From positions 1,039,763-1,103,762 of the forward strand of contig NZ_SODF01000003.1 of the NCBI RefSeq assembly GCF_004365875.1: a stretch of DNA of 64,000 nt. Reading direction: 5' to 3'. The position numbers were made by a program, and so were the translations under genes. The stretch is from Kribbella kalugense (GTDB taxonomy: Bacteria; Actinomycetota; Actinomycetes; Propionibacteriales; Kribbellaceae). The notes beneath the pieces were generated by a model, which searched no databases, had not been told where the DNA came from, and worked only from the letters and a program-made list of their open reading frames with translations. Positions 15,665 to 21,800 of this stretch are shown here, one piece after another (the stretch's first letter is position 1; every line of letters starts with the position of its first letter).

Positions 15665-15713
15665 GGCTCCGATTGTCGTGCATCCCTGGGTGCGGTGTTC
15701 GTCCTCAGTGAAA

Positions 15714-15747
15714 AACGGTTGAACCGTTGACCGGCTGACAGTAAGTT
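15714..15747 (+). promoter_or_regulatory. Promoter with operator of the small micro-ORF/RNA locus
   Basis: TTGAAC (15719-15724), a 17-bp spacer and TAAGTT (15742-15747) make a good sigma-70-like promoter. The -35 is embedded in AACGGTT-G-AACCGTT (15714-15728), a perfect 7-bp inverted repeat well placed for a repressor. The predicted start of transcription is near 15754. Confidence 0.6.
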
Positions 15748-15779
15748 CTGAGTACACGCGAAGGGAGGTGGTCCAACGC

Positions 15780-15818
15780 ATGAATTGCTATCGGACTCGT
15801 GAGGTGGCGGCGGGCTAA
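15780..15818 (+). CDS. Twelve-codon micro-ORF with extended Shine-Dalgarno
   Basis: ATG to TAA encodes MNCYRTREVAAG. It is preceded by AAGGGAGGTGGTCC (15761-15774), which pairs with nearly the whole 16S rRNA 3' end, unusual for this window. The stop codon sits in a GGCGG/CCGCC hairpin. The micro-ORF lies between a promoter and an intrinsic-type terminator with no other gene on the transcript. It may be a peptide gene or the translated part of a dual-function RNA. I recognise no family. Confidence 0.5.
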   Translation: MNCYRTREVAAG

Positions 15819-15937
15819 CCGCCAACCACAGTTTGTGGGCAAGTGGTCGGCCGAAACCAACGCCAGCCACCGGGCCCGCGGGTAGTCAGGACAGTCCGCC
15901 TGACCCTGAGTTCGGCCACCCGGTCGTGTCTCTGGAA

Positions 15938-15960
15938 GCGCCCGCGGGCTTTTTTCTTTG
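15938..15960 (+). terminator. GC-rich self-complementary stem with T-run
   Basis: GCGCCCGCGGGC is followed by TTTTTTCTTTG. This is the clearest T-tract after a GC-rich palindrome in the window and ends the micro-ORF transcript. The earlier GGGCCCGCGGG at about 15879 could be the 5' partner. Confidence 0.6.
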
Positions 15961-15986
15961 TACCGCCGGTTTCTTTGTACCGCCGG
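15953..15986. repeat. Perfect 17-bp tandem duplication
   Basis: TTTCTTTGTACCGCCGG occurs twice head to tail (15953-15969 and 15970-15986). The first copy starts within the terminator T-run and the second ends 5 nt from the stop codon of the SnoaL-like gene. It looks like a recent slippage or duplication event. Confidence 0.9.
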
Positions 15987-15991
15987 CAGCC

Positions 15992-16408
15992 TCAGGTTGC
16001 GGCATCGCGGACGAGCGCGGTGTCGACGAACTGCTCGAACCTGACGATGAGTCCGCCGCGGACCACGAAGTGATGGGCCACCCGGACAGCCAGTGGCTTG
16101 CCGGTCATCCGATGCCGCGCGGTGTAGCGAGCCAGGACGACGACGTTCTCGCCCTCGACGACGTACGTGTCGTCGTGGGCGGCCCAGCCCTCCCACTCCA
16201 CGGCGAGCTTCTCCATGATATTCGCGGTCACCCCCTCAGGAGTGCGGTAGGTGCCGGCCAGTGGGAACCCGGCCATCTCGGTCCATTCCACGTCCGGAGC
16301 CAGAGTCGCGCGGAGCGCCTCGAGGTCACCCGCCGCCGAGGCCAGGTACTGGCGTCGTACCACGTCCGCCGGGGCGAACTCCGGGTTCGATCCGGGGTTC
16401 AGCCCCAC
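15992..16408 (-). CDS. SnoaL-like (NTF2-fold) protein
   Basis: The 138-aa single-domain protein follows the SnoaL/NTF2 pattern: an N-terminal helix pair (VVRRQYLASAAGDLEALRATLAPDVEW, from about residue 16) and a cone of strands ending in HHFVVRGGLIVRFEQFVDTALV. Such proteins are isomerases, cyclases or binding proteins, or have no known role. The start ATG is inside the end of the MBL-like gene (10-nt overlap), so they are co-translated. It may work with that protein under the AraC regulator divergent from the pair. Confidence 0.8.
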   Translation of the reverse strand: MGLNPGSNPEFAPADVVRRQYLASAAGDLEALRATLAPDVEWTEMAGFPLAGTYRTPEGVTANIMEKLAVEWEGWAAHDDTYVVEGENVVVLARYTARHRMTGKPLAVRVAHHFVVRGGLIVRFEQFVDTALVRDAAT

Positions 16409-17205
16409 GTCATCTCCCCCTTGGCGACCTTGGTACCGAGGCCCGCAGCAATCTGTAGCCCGGCGTCCGGATAAGCCGCCAGCAAGGACGCTTCGGCCTC
16501 GGCCGCGTCCGCGGATGCGGCGATCGTCTTCTCGAAGAGCTCTAGATACTCGCGGGTGTGGGTGATGGCGGTCAGGTCAGTCGGAGCGCCGGCGACCCGG
16601 TGACCCGCGACGACGTAGGCCGGAGCGAGAGCCTCCAGGTCGTTCAGCACCCGGATCCACTCGGCCCTGAGCTCCGGGGTGGCGCTGTCCGCGGTCCACA
16701 CGTGCAAACCCTCGAACAGCAGGACGCCGCCGACCAGCGAACGTGATGCGGGCTCGAACAAGTACCACGACCGGTCGCCGAGCAGATCGCTGCCGCGGTG
16801 CACCTCGATCGTCGTCCCGTCCACGCTGAGCGCAGGCTCGATGAGGGTGGCGATGTCGACCAAGCGCGTGGGCAGGTTCTGGCCGAGGTGAGCCCATGCC
16901 TGGAGCTTGCCCTGATAGCTGTGCCGGATGTGCTCGATCACATCGGCCGGGGCCACGAAGACTGCCTCGGGAAAGGCGTCGGCGATGACCTCGGCACCGA
17001 AGTAGAAGTCAGGGTCGCCCGCGGTGATCACCACGGTCGTGAGCCGAGTACCCGCATCGAGCACCTCGGCGACGATCCGGTGGCCGTCAGCGCGGGTGAA
17101 GGCCGCGTCGACCACCAGGGCCTCGGACTCGCCGGTGACGAGCACGCTGGTCTTGTTCAGCGACGTGTCCGCCGCGTCGATGACGGTGAACGTAAGATTT
17201 GACAT
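16399..17205 (-). CDS. Metallo-beta-lactamase-fold protein with degenerate metal site
   Basis: The 268-aa protein from ATG 17205 has the MBL-fold layout (VLVTGESEALVVDAAFTRADG near residues 19-39, VVAGHR near 195-200). In place of the HxHxDH zinc motif it reads AGDPDFYFG near residues 62-70. All the histidines are replaced and only one Asp remains, so metal hydrolase activity is doubtful. A much longer in-frame start runs through the divergent AraC gene and is rejected. It is followed by a SnoaL-like gene with 10-nt overlap and diverges from an AraC regulator. Confidence 0.75.
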   Translation of the reverse strand: MSNLTFTVIDAADTSLNKTSVLVTGESEALVVDAAFTRADGHRIVAEVLDAGTRLTTVVITAGDPDFYFGAEVIADAFPEAVFVAPADVIEHIRHSYQGKLQAWAHLGQNLPTRLVDIATLIEPALSVDGTTIEVHRGSDLLGDRSWYLFEPASRSLVGGVLLFEGLHVWTADSATPELRAEWIRVLNDLEALAPAYVVAGHRVAGAPTDLTAITHTREYLELFEKTIAASADAAEAEASLLAAYPDAGLQIAAGLGTKVAKGEMTWG

Positions 17206-17260
17206 GCCGGTAACGCTAGGCCGGAGGCCACCGATTCTCACGGTCAGGACGGGAACCCAG

Positions 17261-18163
17261 ATGGTGAAAACAGGACATTCCGCCATTCGGCGCGTCCGGT
17301 TCCTGCCTCCGGCCCGGAGCGTGGGCGACATCGAGGTGAACACGCTGAAAGGCATCCGTGACCGCGGCGGACCGGATGAGTTCCTCACCCCGCAGCGCCT
17401 CGACTTCGACCTGCTGCTGCACCTCGAGCGCGGCGCCGCCGTGCACACGGTCGACTTCACCGACTACCCCTTGCGCCCGGGCGACGTCTTGTGGGTGCGC
17501 GCCGGCCAGGTCCACCGTTGGGGCGCGATCGGGAACATCGAGGGGCCGGTGATCATGTTCGGCCCGCACATGGTCGACAAGCACACCCGCGACGTCATCC
17601 GATCGCACCAGGTCCGCCCGCAGAGCTACTGGCCCGCTTCCGAACTCGCAGACTCGCCGGTCCCGCGAGCCCTCGACCTGCTCACCATCAGCGCCGGTCC
17701 CCGCGCAAGCGAACAGAACGACCTGCGCCAAGCCGCCCTTGCGCACGGACTCGCCTCGCTCCTGGTCCAGCTGACCCTCGTCGGGCCACCCGGCGGCATG
17801 CCGCCGACGCCGCCGACCCACGAGGTCTATGGCTGGTTCCGCGACCACATCGAGGAGCACTTCCACCACTGGCACACTGTCAGCGAGTACGCCGACCGGC
17901 TGGGGTACTCCGCCCGCACCCTCAACCGACTCGCCCGACTGAACACCGGCCTGTCCGCCAAGGAGCTCATCGACGAACGCGTCGTGCTCGAGGCCAAGCG
18001 CCAACTCAGTCACGGTGACGCCTCCGTGGCCGAGATTGCCGAGGAACTCGGCTTCGACGACGCCTCGAACTTCTCGTCGTACTTCCGTCGGCAGACCCAG
18101 ATGACCCCCGGCACCTTCCGGACCCGGAGCCGCGTGGGTAACCCAACGGCGCCGGCAGGTTGA
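17261..18163 (+). CDS. AraC-family transcriptional regulator
   Basis: The 300-aa protein has an N-terminal cupin-like sensor domain (FDLLLHLERGAAVHTVDFTDYPLRPGDVLWVRAGQVHRWG, starting about residue 48). The C-terminal AraC double helix-turn-helix reads YADRLGYSARTLNRLARLNTG, then VAEIAEELGFDDASNFSSYFRRQTQMTP up to about residue 287. The sensor pattern H-x-W with the LRPGD turn suggests a small-molecule cupin. It diverges from the MBL-like/SnoaL-like pair 55 nt away and likely controls them. Effector unknown. Confidence 0.9.
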   Translation: MVKTGHSAIRRVRFLPPARSVGDIEVNTLKGIRDRGGPDEFLTPQRLDFDLLLHLERGAAVHTVDFTDYPLRPGDVLWVRAGQVHRWGAIGNIEGPVIMFGPHMVDKHTRDVIRSHQVRPQSYWPASELADSPVPRALDLLTISAGPRASEQNDLRQAALAHGLASLLVQLTLVGPPGGMPPTPPTHEVYGWFRDHIEEHFHHWHTVSEYADRLGYSARTLNRLARLNTGLSAKELIDERVVLEAKRQLSHGDASVAEIAEELGFDDASNFSSYFRRQTQMTPGTFRTRSRVGNPTAPAG

Positions 18164-18197
18164 GAAGACCGATGGGACTCGCCGCAGGCTGGTCCGA

Positions 18198-18914
18198 TCA
18201 GGTTTTGTCGTCGGGAGGCGGGCAGTCGAGCCCGAGGGCCTCGCCGATCTCCCGTAGCTGGGCCTCGAAGTACGCCGCGGCATCCGGCAGCACCCAGTGC
18301 AGCTGGCCGAAGACCTCCATGCAGATCAGGCCGTACAGCCTGGTCCAGTAGGTCAGCGACAGGTAGATCGCACCGGGCGGCATGCCCTGGAAGTGCTCCG
18401 ACTCCTCCGTAAGCTGGGCGATCAGCTCTTTCCCGAGCAGCTCGTCGGGCGGGTACGGGAACGGTTTCCAGTGCCAGATCTGCGCGACCAGTTCCTTGAA
18501 GACCGCGCCGAACCGCATCGCCGCTTGATGCCCGGGGGTCTCGTCATGATCGTCCGCGTCGGCGATCGGGACCGCCGTACCGAACAGCAGGGCGAACTCG
18601 GCGGGATGCTCTAGTCCCCAGTTCCGCAGGCCGTTGGCCAGCAGGTACAGCCGCTCCCCTAGGTCGGGGACTTCCTCGGTCGTCTGCAACTGCATCAGCG
18701 CAGCGGTCAGTTCGTCGTACAGATCGGCGATCAGGGCGCCGATCAGCGCGTCGTGACTCGGGAAGTATCGGTAGAGCGCCGGCGGGGTCAGGCCGAGCTC
18801 GCGTGCGACCGCGCGCAGACCGACCGCGGTCGATCCGCCGCTGACCAGCAGCCGGCGGGCGGCCGCCTTGATCTCGGCCAGCGTCGCCGCTCGCCGCCGG
18901 TCCCGGCTCTCCAC
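18198..18914 (-). CDS. TetR-family regulator with WHG-type C-terminal domain
   Basis: The 238-aa product from GTG 18914 (AAGGAG 9 nt upstream) has a TetR helix-turn-helix (AAARRLLVSGGSTAVGLRAVARELGLTPPALYRYFPSHDALI, about residues 18-58). The long C-terminal domain includes the WGLEHPAEFALLFGTAVP segment typical of TetR_C_13/WHG regulators. It diverges from the MMPL transporter gene, and a 33-bp near-perfect palindrome lies between them. That layout strongly suggests it represses the exporter. Confidence 0.92.
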   Translation of the reverse strand: MESRDRRRAATLAEIKAAARRLLVSGGSTAVGLRAVARELGLTPPALYRYFPSHDALIGALIADLYDELTAALMQLQTTEEVPDLGERLYLLANGLRNWGLEHPAEFALLFGTAVPIADADDHDETPGHQAAMRFGAVFKELVAQIWHWKPFPYPPDELLGKELIAQLTEESEHFQGMPPGAIYLSLTYWTRLYGLICMEVFGQLHWVLPDAAAYFEAQLREIGEALGLDCPPPDDKT

Positions 18915-18955
18915 TTCGAAACTCTCCTTGACATCGCGGTAGGGCAGGACCTTAG

Positions 18956-18988
18956 AGTGAACACTGTTAACAGTTAACACTGTTCACT
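18956..18988. promoter_or_regulatory. 33-bp near-perfect palindrome, operator of the TetR/MMPL pair
   Basis: The outer arms AGTGAACA and TGTTCACT enclose two inner TGTTAAC/GTTAACA units around a central A. Read against its reverse complement, only three of the 33 positions differ. It is long enough for two TetR dimers and sits 42 nt from both genes. Confidence 0.85.
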
Positions 18989-19029
18989 GAAGCTCCTGCC
19001 GCTCAATCTACTCGCTGGGGGACAGTTTC

Positions 19030-21210
19030 GTGTTCGAGACGCTCGGCCACTTCACGTACCGGCGCCGCCGTCTGGTGCTCACGCTGACCGGACTCTTCGT
19101 CGTCCTCGGGCTGGCCTGGGGCACCGGCGTGTTCGGGTCGCTCGCGAACGGCGGCTTCGACGCGCCGAACACCGAGGCCGCCAACGCGGTCCAGACCATC
19201 GAGCAGAACGTCCGCCGCACCGGCACCGACGTGATCGTGCTCTACCGCAGCTCGACCGAGACCGTCGCCGACCCGGCCTTCAAGCAGTCCGTCGAGCAGC
19301 ATCTCGCCGCGTTGCCGAGCGCCGACGTGACCGGAGTTTCGACGTACTGGAGCACGAAGTCGCCAGCCTTCGTGTCCAAGGATCAGCACAGCACGTACGC
19401 CGTACTGACGCTGGCCGGCGCCGATCCGGAGGCGCGGCTGGACACGTTCCACCGGATCGCCTCGCAGGTCCGGACAGCGCCGGCCGGACTCGAGTCGAAG
19501 GTCGGCGGCGAGGTCGCGGTGTTCGACGAGGTGAATACCCAGACCGAGCACGACATCGTGAAGGCCGAGACGATCTCGACGCCGATCGTGCTGGTGCTGC
19601 TGGTGATCGTGTTCGGCGGGCTGGTCGCGGCCTCGCTGCCGTTGTTCGTCGGCGCGCTCGCGATCCTGGGTGCGTTCGTGCTACTGCGCGGGTTGTCGGC
19701 GATCACCGACGTGTCGATCTTCTCGATCAACATCGTCACGATGATCGGGCTCGGGCTGGCGATCGACTACGCGTTGTTCATCGTCACCCGGTTCCGCGAA
19801 GAACTTGCTCGCGGCAACGATGTCGAGACGGCGCTGACCGCGACGATGGCGACGGCCGGGCGCACGGTCGCGTTCTCCGGTGTGACGGTCGGGGTGGCGA
19901 TCAGCAGCCTGGTGCTGTTCCCGGTGATGTTCCTGAAGTCGATGGCGTACGGCGGTGCGGCCGCGGTGGCGATCGCGATGATCGCGGCGCTGACCGCGCT
20001 GCCGGCGCTGCTCGCCGTACTTGGGCATCGGGTGAACAGTCTGCGGATCTTCAAGCCCCGCAAGGCTTCCACGGACCGGGGTGCCTGGTATCGCCTTGCG
20101 CACAGCGTGATGCGGCGGCCGGTGCGGTATGTGCTCGTACTCGTCCCGCTGCTGCTAGTGCTAGGGATCCCTTTCCTGTCGGCGCAATTGGGCGGGGTGG
20201 ACCATCGATCGTTGCCGCCCGGAGCGACCTCGCGGACGGTGACCGAGACGCTGCAACGCGACTTCCCGGGAGCAGGCGGGTCGGACATTTACGCGGCCGT
20301 GCGGTTCGACTCCGCCCCGAGCGATCCGTCGGCAGCGTTGGCGCCGTACGTCGCTCAGTTGAAGCAGGTGCGGGACGTCGAGGACGTGCGGATCGGCGGT
20401 TATGCCAAGGGGGTCGCGTCCGTCGTCGTACACACTCACTTCACCGGGCAGGAGCTGGCGGCGCGGGACGTCGTACATGGAGTACGGGCGGTTTCGGCGC
20501 CGGCCGGGACGCAGGTCCAGGTTGGCGGCGAGACGGCCGCGGTGATCGATCTGCTGCACGTGCTGAAGGAACGAGCGCCGTACATGGCCGGGTTCATCGT
20601 GGTGGTGACGTTCGTGCTGCTGTTCGTTGCCTTTGGCTCGTTCGTGCTGCCGGCGAAGGCGCTGCTGATGAACGTGCTGTCGCTGTCGGCGGCGTTCGGG
20701 GCGATGGTGTGGATCTTCCAGGACGGGCATCTGTCCGGGTTCCTCGGCTTCACGCCGGCCGGGTTCCTCGACGCGACCAACCCGGTGATGCTGTTCGCCG
20801 TGCTGTTCGGGCTGTCGATGGACTACGAGGTGTTCCTGCTCAGCCGGATCCGGGAGGAGTACGACCGGACCGGCGACAATACCGAGGCGGTCGCGCACGG
20901 GCTGCAGCGGACCGGCGGGATCATCACCAGTGCGGCTTTGCTGCTGATCATCGTGGTGGCGGCGTTCTCCACCTCGGGCATCGTGTTCGTGAAGATGATC
21001 GGGGTCGGGCTGGTGATCGCGATCGCACTGGACGCGACGATCGTCCGGGCGCTGCTGGTGCCGGCGACGATGCGGCTGCTCGGACGCGCCAACTGGTGGG
21101 CACCGAAGCCGCTGGTGCGGTGGTGGGAACGCAACGGCTTCCGGGAAGACGATCAGGGTTGGAGCCGGGACAGCTCCCAGGAACCGTCGCCGGAGTTAGT
21201 ACGGCGATAA
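19030..21210 (+). CDS. MMPL-family RND transporter
   Basis: The 726-aa inner-membrane protein shows the MMPL double repeat: a first TM (about residues 15-35), a large extracytoplasmic domain, five helices around residues 178-335 (including GLGLAIDYALFIVTRFREEL near 238-257), then a second copy with FGLSMDYEVFLLSRIREEY near 595-613. The Asp-Tyr pairs in both repeats fit proton-relay residues of RND carriers. MMPLs export lipids, drugs or peptides. Translation begins at GTG 19030 after a G-rich site. Regulation by the divergent TetR is expected. Its 3' end overlaps pdxH by 58 nt. Confidence 0.93.
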   Translation: MFETLGHFTYRRRRLVLTLTGLFVVLGLAWGTGVFGSLANGGFDAPNTEAANAVQTIEQNVRRTGTDVIVLYRSSTETVADPAFKQSVEQHLAALPSADVTGVSTYWSTKSPAFVSKDQHSTYAVLTLAGADPEARLDTFHRIASQVRTAPAGLESKVGGEVAVFDEVNTQTEHDIVKAETISTPIVLVLLVIVFGGLVAASLPLFVGALAILGAFVLLRGLSAITDVSIFSINIVTMIGLGLAIDYALFIVTRFREELARGNDVETALTATMATAGRTVAFSGVTVGVAISSLVLFPVMFLKSMAYGGAAAVAIAMIAALTALPALLAVLGHRVNSLRIFKPRKASTDRGAWYRLAHSVMRRPVRYVLVLVPLLLVLGIPFLSAQLGGVDHRSLPPGATSRTVTETLQRDFPGAGGSDIYAAVRFDSAPSDPSAALAPYVAQLKQVRDVEDVRIGGYAKGVASVVVHTHFTGQELAARDVVHGVRAVSAPAGTQVQVGGETAAVIDLLHVLKERAPYMAGFIVVVTFVLLFVAFGSFVLPAKALLMNVLSLSAAFGAMVWIFQDGHLSGFLGFTPAGFLDATNPVMLFAVLFGLSMDYEVFLLSRIREEYDRTGDNTEAVAHGLQRTGGIITSAALLLIIVVAAFSTSGIVFVKMIGVGLVIAIALDATIVRALLVPATMRLLGRANWWAPKPLVRWWERNGFREDDQGWSRDSSQEPSPELVRR

Positions 21211-21800
21211 GCCAGGCGGTCGTGCAGTCGGCCGGTGCGGCCCTGCCAGAACTCGAATGCCTCCGGGGCGACCAGATAGCCGCCCCAGAAGTACGGCGTG
21301 GAGATGTCGGTGCCCTCCGGCCACTGCCGCTCGTACGACTCGTACTGCAAGTCGAGCTCCTCGCGGGACGCGACCGGCTGGCTCTGCTGGGATGCCCACG
21401 CACCGAGCTGTGATCCGCGCGGCCGGCTGGCGAAGTACTCGTCGACCTCGTCGGTGGGGAGCTTGGTCACGCTGCCTTCGATACGGACCTGACGCTCCAT
21501 CGCGTGCCACGGGAACACCAGCGCGCAGTGCGGGTTGGTGTCGAGGTCGTCAGCCTTGCGGGACTGCTGGTTGGTGTAGAACACGAACCCGCGCTGGTCG
21601 ACGCGCTTCAGCAGGACGGTCCGCGCCGAGGGCCGCCCGTCGCCGTCGGCCGTGGCCAGCACCATCGCGTTGGGCTCCGCCAGTCCGGCGTCCCGAGCCT
21701 GCTCCAACCACACCTCGAACTGCGCGATCGGGTCAGCATCAACCTGACTCTCGAGCAGCTCCCCGAGGCCGTACGCGCGCCGCATCTCCGCAAGATCCAC
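21153..21800 (-). CDS. pdxH: Pyridoxamine 5'-phosphate oxidase
   Basis: The 215-aa flavoenzyme oxidises pyridoxamine/pyridoxine phosphate to PLP. It shows the FMN-binding segment RTVLLKRVDQRGFVFYTNQQSRKADDL (from about residue 60), VRIEGSV near 105-111, the core SRPRGSQLGAWASQQS near 125-140, and the canonical C-terminal RL-x-P ending (SRLQP). Length and motifs are typical. It is separated by only 9 nt from the asparagine-synthetase-like gene upstream on the same strand, and converges with MMPL with a 58-nt overlap. Confidence 0.96.
   Translation of the reverse strand: MDLAEMRRAYGLGELLESQVDADPIAQFEVWLEQARDAGLAEPNAMVLATADGDGRPSARTVLLKRVDQRGFVFYTNQQSRKADDLDTNPHCALVFPWHAMERQVRIEGSVTKLPTDEVDEYFASRPRGSQLGAWASQQSQPVASREELDLQYESYERQWPEGTDISTPYFWGGYLVAPEAFEFWQGRTGRLHDRLAYRRTNSGDGSWELSRLQP

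Follow-up and report, generated by a model that had tools for sequence, protein, structure and literature searches.

Identity and distribution of the element

Between two minus-strand genes of Kribbella kalugense lies a plus-strand block in which a promoter, an extended Shine-Dalgarno (SD) sequence, a 12-codon frame, several stem-loops and a GC stem with a T-run succeed one another. An earlier note on this DNA had picked out these parts from the letters, all of which are in the sequence (Table 1), and had proposed the block as a candidate for an undescribed element. We asked what kind of gene this is, and whether its short frame is there to be translated or is incidental to an RNA structure. 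Throughout, the window is the whole 64-kb stretch of DNA that was analyzed.

A covariance-model search of the window against Rfam, of the kind that the note had proposed, returned a single match, RF02471 (Ms_IGR-5), at 15754–15957 on the plus strand (61.7 bits versus a gathering score of 45, E = 2.9e-11, model positions 1–184 of 184). Membership of the RNA in this family is virtually certain. The element is therefore already described as an RNA family, although its function is not, and homologues had already been detected as transcripts: that of M. smegmatis as IGR-5/ncMSMEG15794c (PMC10454040), that of S. lividans by RNA-seq validation (PMC8079986), and that of S. avermitilis as a separate unit with a mapped start and end (PMC8780764). 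In the open-access literature on Ms_IGR-5, we found no ORF, pseudoknot or function described.

The K. kalugense genome carries one copy, which is chromosomal and intergenic. All 37 sampled congeners (the window's own genome excluded) likewise have one copy each, and matches were found in 152 of 246 genomes of the order and in 70 of 396 drawn across the phylum. Plasmids and phages gave no blastn match to the element and viral contigs lacked its 5' motif, hence a mobile origin was rejected. A pattern scan of contigs allowed five free bases between GGAC and GAGGTG, not four, and covers that spacing only; its matches outside actinobacteria, and also those in Streptomyces and Nocardiopsis, were judged by inspection to be chance. 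For comparative analysis, 120 homologous loci were collected and oriented, and the frame was read in each; their lineage labels (Streptomyces-like, mycobacterial, Nocardioides-like) were inferred from gene content and the literature.

Table 1. Features of the Ms_IGR-5 locus, in coordinates of the window.
Feature	Position	Strand	Details and basis
A-tract upstream of promoter	15711–15715		
Palindrome AACGGTT-G-AACCGTT	15714–15728	.	Perfect, over -35 box; sequence
Promoter	15719–15747	+	-35 TTGAAC 15719–15724, 17-bp spacer, -10 TAAGTT 15742–15747; congener consensus
RF02471 Ms_IGR-5 RNA, full length	15754–15957	+	Covariance-model match
Extended SD GAAGGGAGGTGGTCCA	15760–15775	+	16 contiguous pairs (14 Watson-Crick, 2 GU) with 16S tail
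Micro-ORF MNCYRTREVAAG, 12 codons	15780–15818	+	ATG 15780, TAA 15816–15818; frame, start and stop kept in 119/120
Pseudoknot strand 1 CGGACT (codons 5–6)	15792–15797	+	Covaries with 15893–15898
Internal anti-SD complement GAGGTGG	15801–15807	+	7-bp duplex; first base to stop, 15 nt
Helix A 5' arm GGTGGCGGC, last ORF codons	15803–15811	+	Covariation; minimum-energy fold
Helix B hairpin	15813–15852	+	Arms 15813–15820 and 15845–15852; includes stop codon; minimum-energy fold
Helix A 3' arm GCC(A)GCCACC	15862–15871	+	Covariation
Terminator stem 5' arm GCCCGCGGG	15874–15882	+	Sequence; minimum-energy fold
Inner hairpin GTCAGG-ACAGTCCG-CCTGAC	15885–15904	+	Minimum-energy fold
Pseudoknot strand 2 AGTCCG, inner loop of terminator	15893–15898	+	Covariation
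Terminator 3' arm CCCGCGGGC (15941–15949) and T-run	15941–15959	+	Sequence; minimum-energy fold

A predicted stand-alone transcription unit

The promoter was not scored by a strict sigma-70 scan; a consensus among congeners (CGAAAA..GTTGAA...GTAGGTT) supports it, and the predicted transcript start, ACAC at 15754, is also the first base of the Rfam match. No co-directional gene follows the RNA in the window. Among homologues, the strand of the next gene downstream, assessed by a crude coding score, is mixed, and the neighbors vary by lineage, with pdxH convergent downstream in several, ligA in deep lineages, and an aminotransferase-IV-like gene upstream in mycobacterial relatives (gene names are from our reading of translations). 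The earlier description of the block as a free-standing RNA gene rather than a leader thus holds, and we take Ms_IGR-5 to be a core-like gene that stands alone. A translated leader or attenuator of a downstream gene would resemble this RNA in its short frame, alternative pairings and terminator, but the lack of a downstream partner here, the mixed strands elsewhere and the mapping of the S. avermitilis homologue as a unit with its own start and end make such a role highly improbable.

The palindrome over the -35 box had been proposed as an operator. The perfect repeat is present as claimed, but only 5 of 33 same-genus copies have it, whereas the A-tract, the -35 TTGAA and the -10 are common to nearly all. 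An operator role is therefore unlikely and was rejected; the palindrome is probably incidental.

Two further observations concern the surroundings. Right after the terminator (15953–15986), a 17-bp unit, TTTCTTTGTACCGCCGG, occurs twice in tandem, and the equivalent position in one congener (L075) holds another tandem pair, TTTTTTGAACCAGCACAG. In two congeners (L071 and L074) pdxH comes directly after the RNA; in the window ~5 kb (the 16000–21800 region) separates the RNA from pdxH (21153–21800, minus strand), and the intervening genes read, from their translations, as SnoaL-like, MBL-fold, AraC-like, TetR-like and MMPL-like.

An extended Shine-Dalgarno sequence and a conserved frame

The SD sequence begins 6 nt from the predicted 5' end of the RNA. 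No match to the 3' tail of 16S rRNA longer than its 16 bp exists on either strand of the window, and the core motif of the SD is found only once in the 8.3-Mb genome. The tail used for pairing (...TGGATCACCTCCTTTC) was taken from congeners with 16S genes; the assembly of this genome, otherwise complete, yielded no 16S 3' end. Duplexes of 15–20 bp can form in 119 of the 120 homologues.

The micro-ORF is conserved in relatives too. In 119 of 120 homologues the frame is open, a start codon lies in frame 2–7 nt past GGTCC, and the stop falls exactly 15 nt after an invariant GAG. Most frames have 12 codons and some have 13, 14 or 15, with start and stop always in frame. The start is mostly ATG, followed by TTG and GTG, while CTG, ATT, ATC or ACG appear in deep lineages. 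Frames of 14–15 codons occur in deep-branching loci (L089, L091, L093–L097, L099, L113–L119), often with near-cognate starts only (CTG, ATT, ATC), and at L088 the frame would require an ACG start. Where only near-cognate starts fit, translation would be weaker.

Among the stops of 92 distinct ORFs we counted 65 TAG, 20 TGA and 7 TAA, and not a single TGG (Fisher p = 1e-14 for the exclusion, uncorrected). TGG would be expected here if only purines mattered to the RNA. In frame, none of the 92 has an internal stop, whereas the two alternative frames are interrupted in 73 and 86 of them, and the variable part of the ORF contains none versus a mean of 18 and a minimum of 7 in 2000 shuffles. On this evolutionary evidence, it is highly probable that translation of the Ms_IGR-5 frame is conserved. 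In M. abscessus and M. smegmatis, ribosomal reads on MS_IGR-5 were also significant, albeit in a study that itself cautions that such reads on ncRNAs can be RNP artefacts (PMC4974804).

In Nocardioides-like loci (L031–L058) a 5–6 bp hairpin (GAAGAA-UGAG-UUCUUC) carries the start codon at its tip. The hairpin is clear in these and in some same-genus copies and absent in Streptomyces-like copies; it is thus lineage-specific, and we rejected it as a family-wide element.

Peptide content follows the RNA

If the frame is translated, is the product what matters? A 12–15 aa micropeptide that acts itself would explain why the frame is conserved and why the pattern xxxxEVxxx recurs across the phylum. 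However, the codons for the recurring EV, GAG GTG, are identical in 89 of 89 distinct ORFs with zero synonymous changes, and such fixation at every base, third positions included, points to a constraint on the RNA. The conserved residues fall on paired or anti-SD bases: GTG and the next codons lie within helix A and an ACN codon lies within the pseudoknot. Outside these RNA-constrained positions the residues vary widely among homologues, with codons 2–4 freely variable. A functional micropeptide is accordingly a decidedly improbable reading. Since the amino acids track RNA pairings, it seems to be translation that is conserved and, for the most part, not its product; judged by the comparison of homologues, the frame and its ends are kept, with residues mostly dictated by base pairing. 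A conserved frame with freely changing residues fits the earlier suggestion that translating the peptide may matter more than the peptide itself.

The internal GAGGTG ends 6 nt before the last sense codon and can pair with the anti-SD, a distance at which a ribosome could be waiting on the stop codon. GAGGTG is partly in helix A, hence its invariance need not mean ribosome binding. Inspection revealed no consistent start codon after GAGGTG, and its use as the start site for a second ORF was rejected.

A frame whose content is free could also serve merely to release the initiating ribosome, with a 30S subunit parked on the extended SD protecting an otherwise ordinary regulatory RNA, in the manner of STAB-SD. 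The position of the 15–20 bp match, 6 nt from the 5' end, agrees well with this account. It leaves unexplained the stop at 15 nt after GAG, the exclusion of TGG and the length changes that keep the frame, and we regard it as unlikely.

Helix A and a pseudoknot enclose the end of the frame

The minimum-energy fold of the window copy contains helix A, helix B and the terminator (z = -2.06), of which helix B and the terminator fit the Rfam consensus structure. In that consensus, neither the helix A 3' arm nor either pseudoknot strand is paired, and of 45 distinct homologues only 12 have the whole of its first stem (consensus positions 14–19 with 55–60). Helix A, formed by the last ORF codons, scored 542.5 with its own partners, compared to a shuffled mean of 454.6 and maximum of 477.5 (66 distinct pairs), and shows double changes such as GGTGACCAT/ATGGTCACC, GGTGGCTAC/GTAGCCACC, GGTGGCTCG/CGAGCTACC and GGTGACCGG/CCGGTTCACC. 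In the pseudoknot, N-GGAC-N of the ORF pairs with N-GTCC-N in the inner loop of the terminator. Of 83 distinct pairs, 62 and 42 are Watson-Crick at its two variable ends, versus 23.5 and 19.4 after shuffling, and two loci swap GGAC/GTCC for CGAC/GTCG or CGAT/GTCG.

Both structures were also evaluated together as a 15-pair structure in 54 distinct composite rows, which were hand-anchored with one-base bulges removed and so are biased towards structure. Standard pairs made up 94.4% versus 83.6% shuffled, double-change cells numbered 92 versus 26.4, and the covariation score was 0.314 versus 0.115 shuffled and at most 0.080 when the strands were slid. The permutation tests ignore shared ancestry; nonetheless, the double changes recur in distant lineages. 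We have very little doubt, from this covariation, that helix A and the pseudoknot exist. Both are missing from the Rfam model.

Two other pairings did not withstand analysis. The note had read the double occurrence of CCCGCGGG as a switchable long-range pair, but both copies (15874–15882 and 15941–15949) are arms of the terminator stem; the long-range pair that covaries is instead that of ORF GGAC with terminator-loop GTCC. Pairing of the SD GGTCC with ORF GGAC is always possible, but no covariation is seen at its flanks (p = 0.99 and 1.0). We therefore rejected GGTCC as the conserved partner, and this pairing may at most represent an alternative state.

A conserved A-rich internal-loop motif (15853–15861), mostly GAAUNCC and here GAAACC, separates helix B from helix A. 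Since no partner was found for it, it could be bound by a protein or make a tertiary contact.

Given so strong a fold, could the RNA be purely non-coding, with its SD-like stretch binding 16S rRNA to sequester or monitor 30S subunits and the frame a by-product of structure? Its annotation as an sRNA and the long 16S complementarity would agree. Structure, however, predicts neither three interchangeable stops without TGG nor the absence of internal stops from all 92 ORFs. Moreover, the stop TAA of the window copy costs a mismatch in helix B that the TGA of congeners does not. We consider this account improbable, to much the same degree as a functional micropeptide.

A candidate ribosome-gated RNA

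The SD and start codon lie outside the fold, whereas helix A, helix B and the GGAC/GTCC pseudoknot take up the second half of the ORF together with its stop. With the end of the frame built into the fold in this way, passage of a ribosome and the fold should be mutually exclusive. Furthermore, the stop keeps a constant place with respect to the fold, while the distance from the start codon to the fold changes in steps of whole codons. The best reading of the conserved frame, extended SD and pseudoknotted fold is, in our view, a ribosome-gated regulatory RNA, which we put forward as a serious but still tentative proposal; the gating, its output and its targets are what we infer.

Under this proposal, a separate RNA of ~200 nt would recruit ribosomes via 15–20 bp of pairing with the 16S tail, and its 12–15 codon frame would be translated with largely free amino-acid content. 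To reach the stop, a ribosome would have to unfold the pseudoknot and helix A, along with the 5' side of helix B. When loaded, ribosomes would open the fold and halt at a fixed place inside it, probably held by the internal GAGGTG; if loading fails, the RNA would stay in the closed pseudoknot. A halted ribosome might change RNA stability or expose CACC- and GTCC-rich strands, which could pair with other mRNAs. Candidate outputs of the gate are thus stability, pairing with other mRNAs and ribosome capture. The fuller version, a phylum-wide RNA switch operated by the ribosome, in which the frame is kept for the position of its start and stop rather than for its peptide and termination is held by the internal SD at a set point of the pseudoknotted fold, is possible, though we hold it with more reserve.

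Discussion

Ms_IGR-5 is a widespread actinobacterial RNA, present in Mycobacterium and Streptomyces relatives, which databases have so far carried as a non-coding sRNA with no assigned function. Its conserved frame, exceptional 16S pairing and pseudoknot raise a testable question: does a ribosome decide which state a free-standing RNA takes? The two added structures, helix A and the pseudoknot, correct the structural model by which the family is found. More generally, Ribo-seq signal on 'non-coding' RNAs may reflect real translation.

How does this RNA compare to known systems? As a full-length, single-copy, intergenic match, the window copy is like IGR-5/ncMSMEG15794c of M. smegmatis; the Rfam entry lists RF02471 as an sRNA gene, whereas this copy carries a conserved 12-codon frame. 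STAB-SD elements of Bacillus mRNAs place a strong SD near the 5' end, as is seen here at 15760–15775, but in Ms_IGR-5 a conserved start, frame and stop follow the SD. Dual-function sRNAs such as SgrS/SgrT and SR1/SR1P are likewise separate small RNAs that contain a short translated frame, and Ms_IGR-5 has, by evolutionary evidence, the conserved and apparently translated ORF of that class; a dual function is plausible. The difference is that the peptide is a second product in SgrS/SgrT and SR1/SR1P, while that of Ms_IGR-5 is not conserved beyond RNA pairing. Lastly, extended pairing with the 16S tail is shared with extended-SD mRNAs of Staphylococcus aureus, which start protein genes (PMC13009471); here, the extended SD precedes a 12-codon frame in a pseudoknotted RNA.
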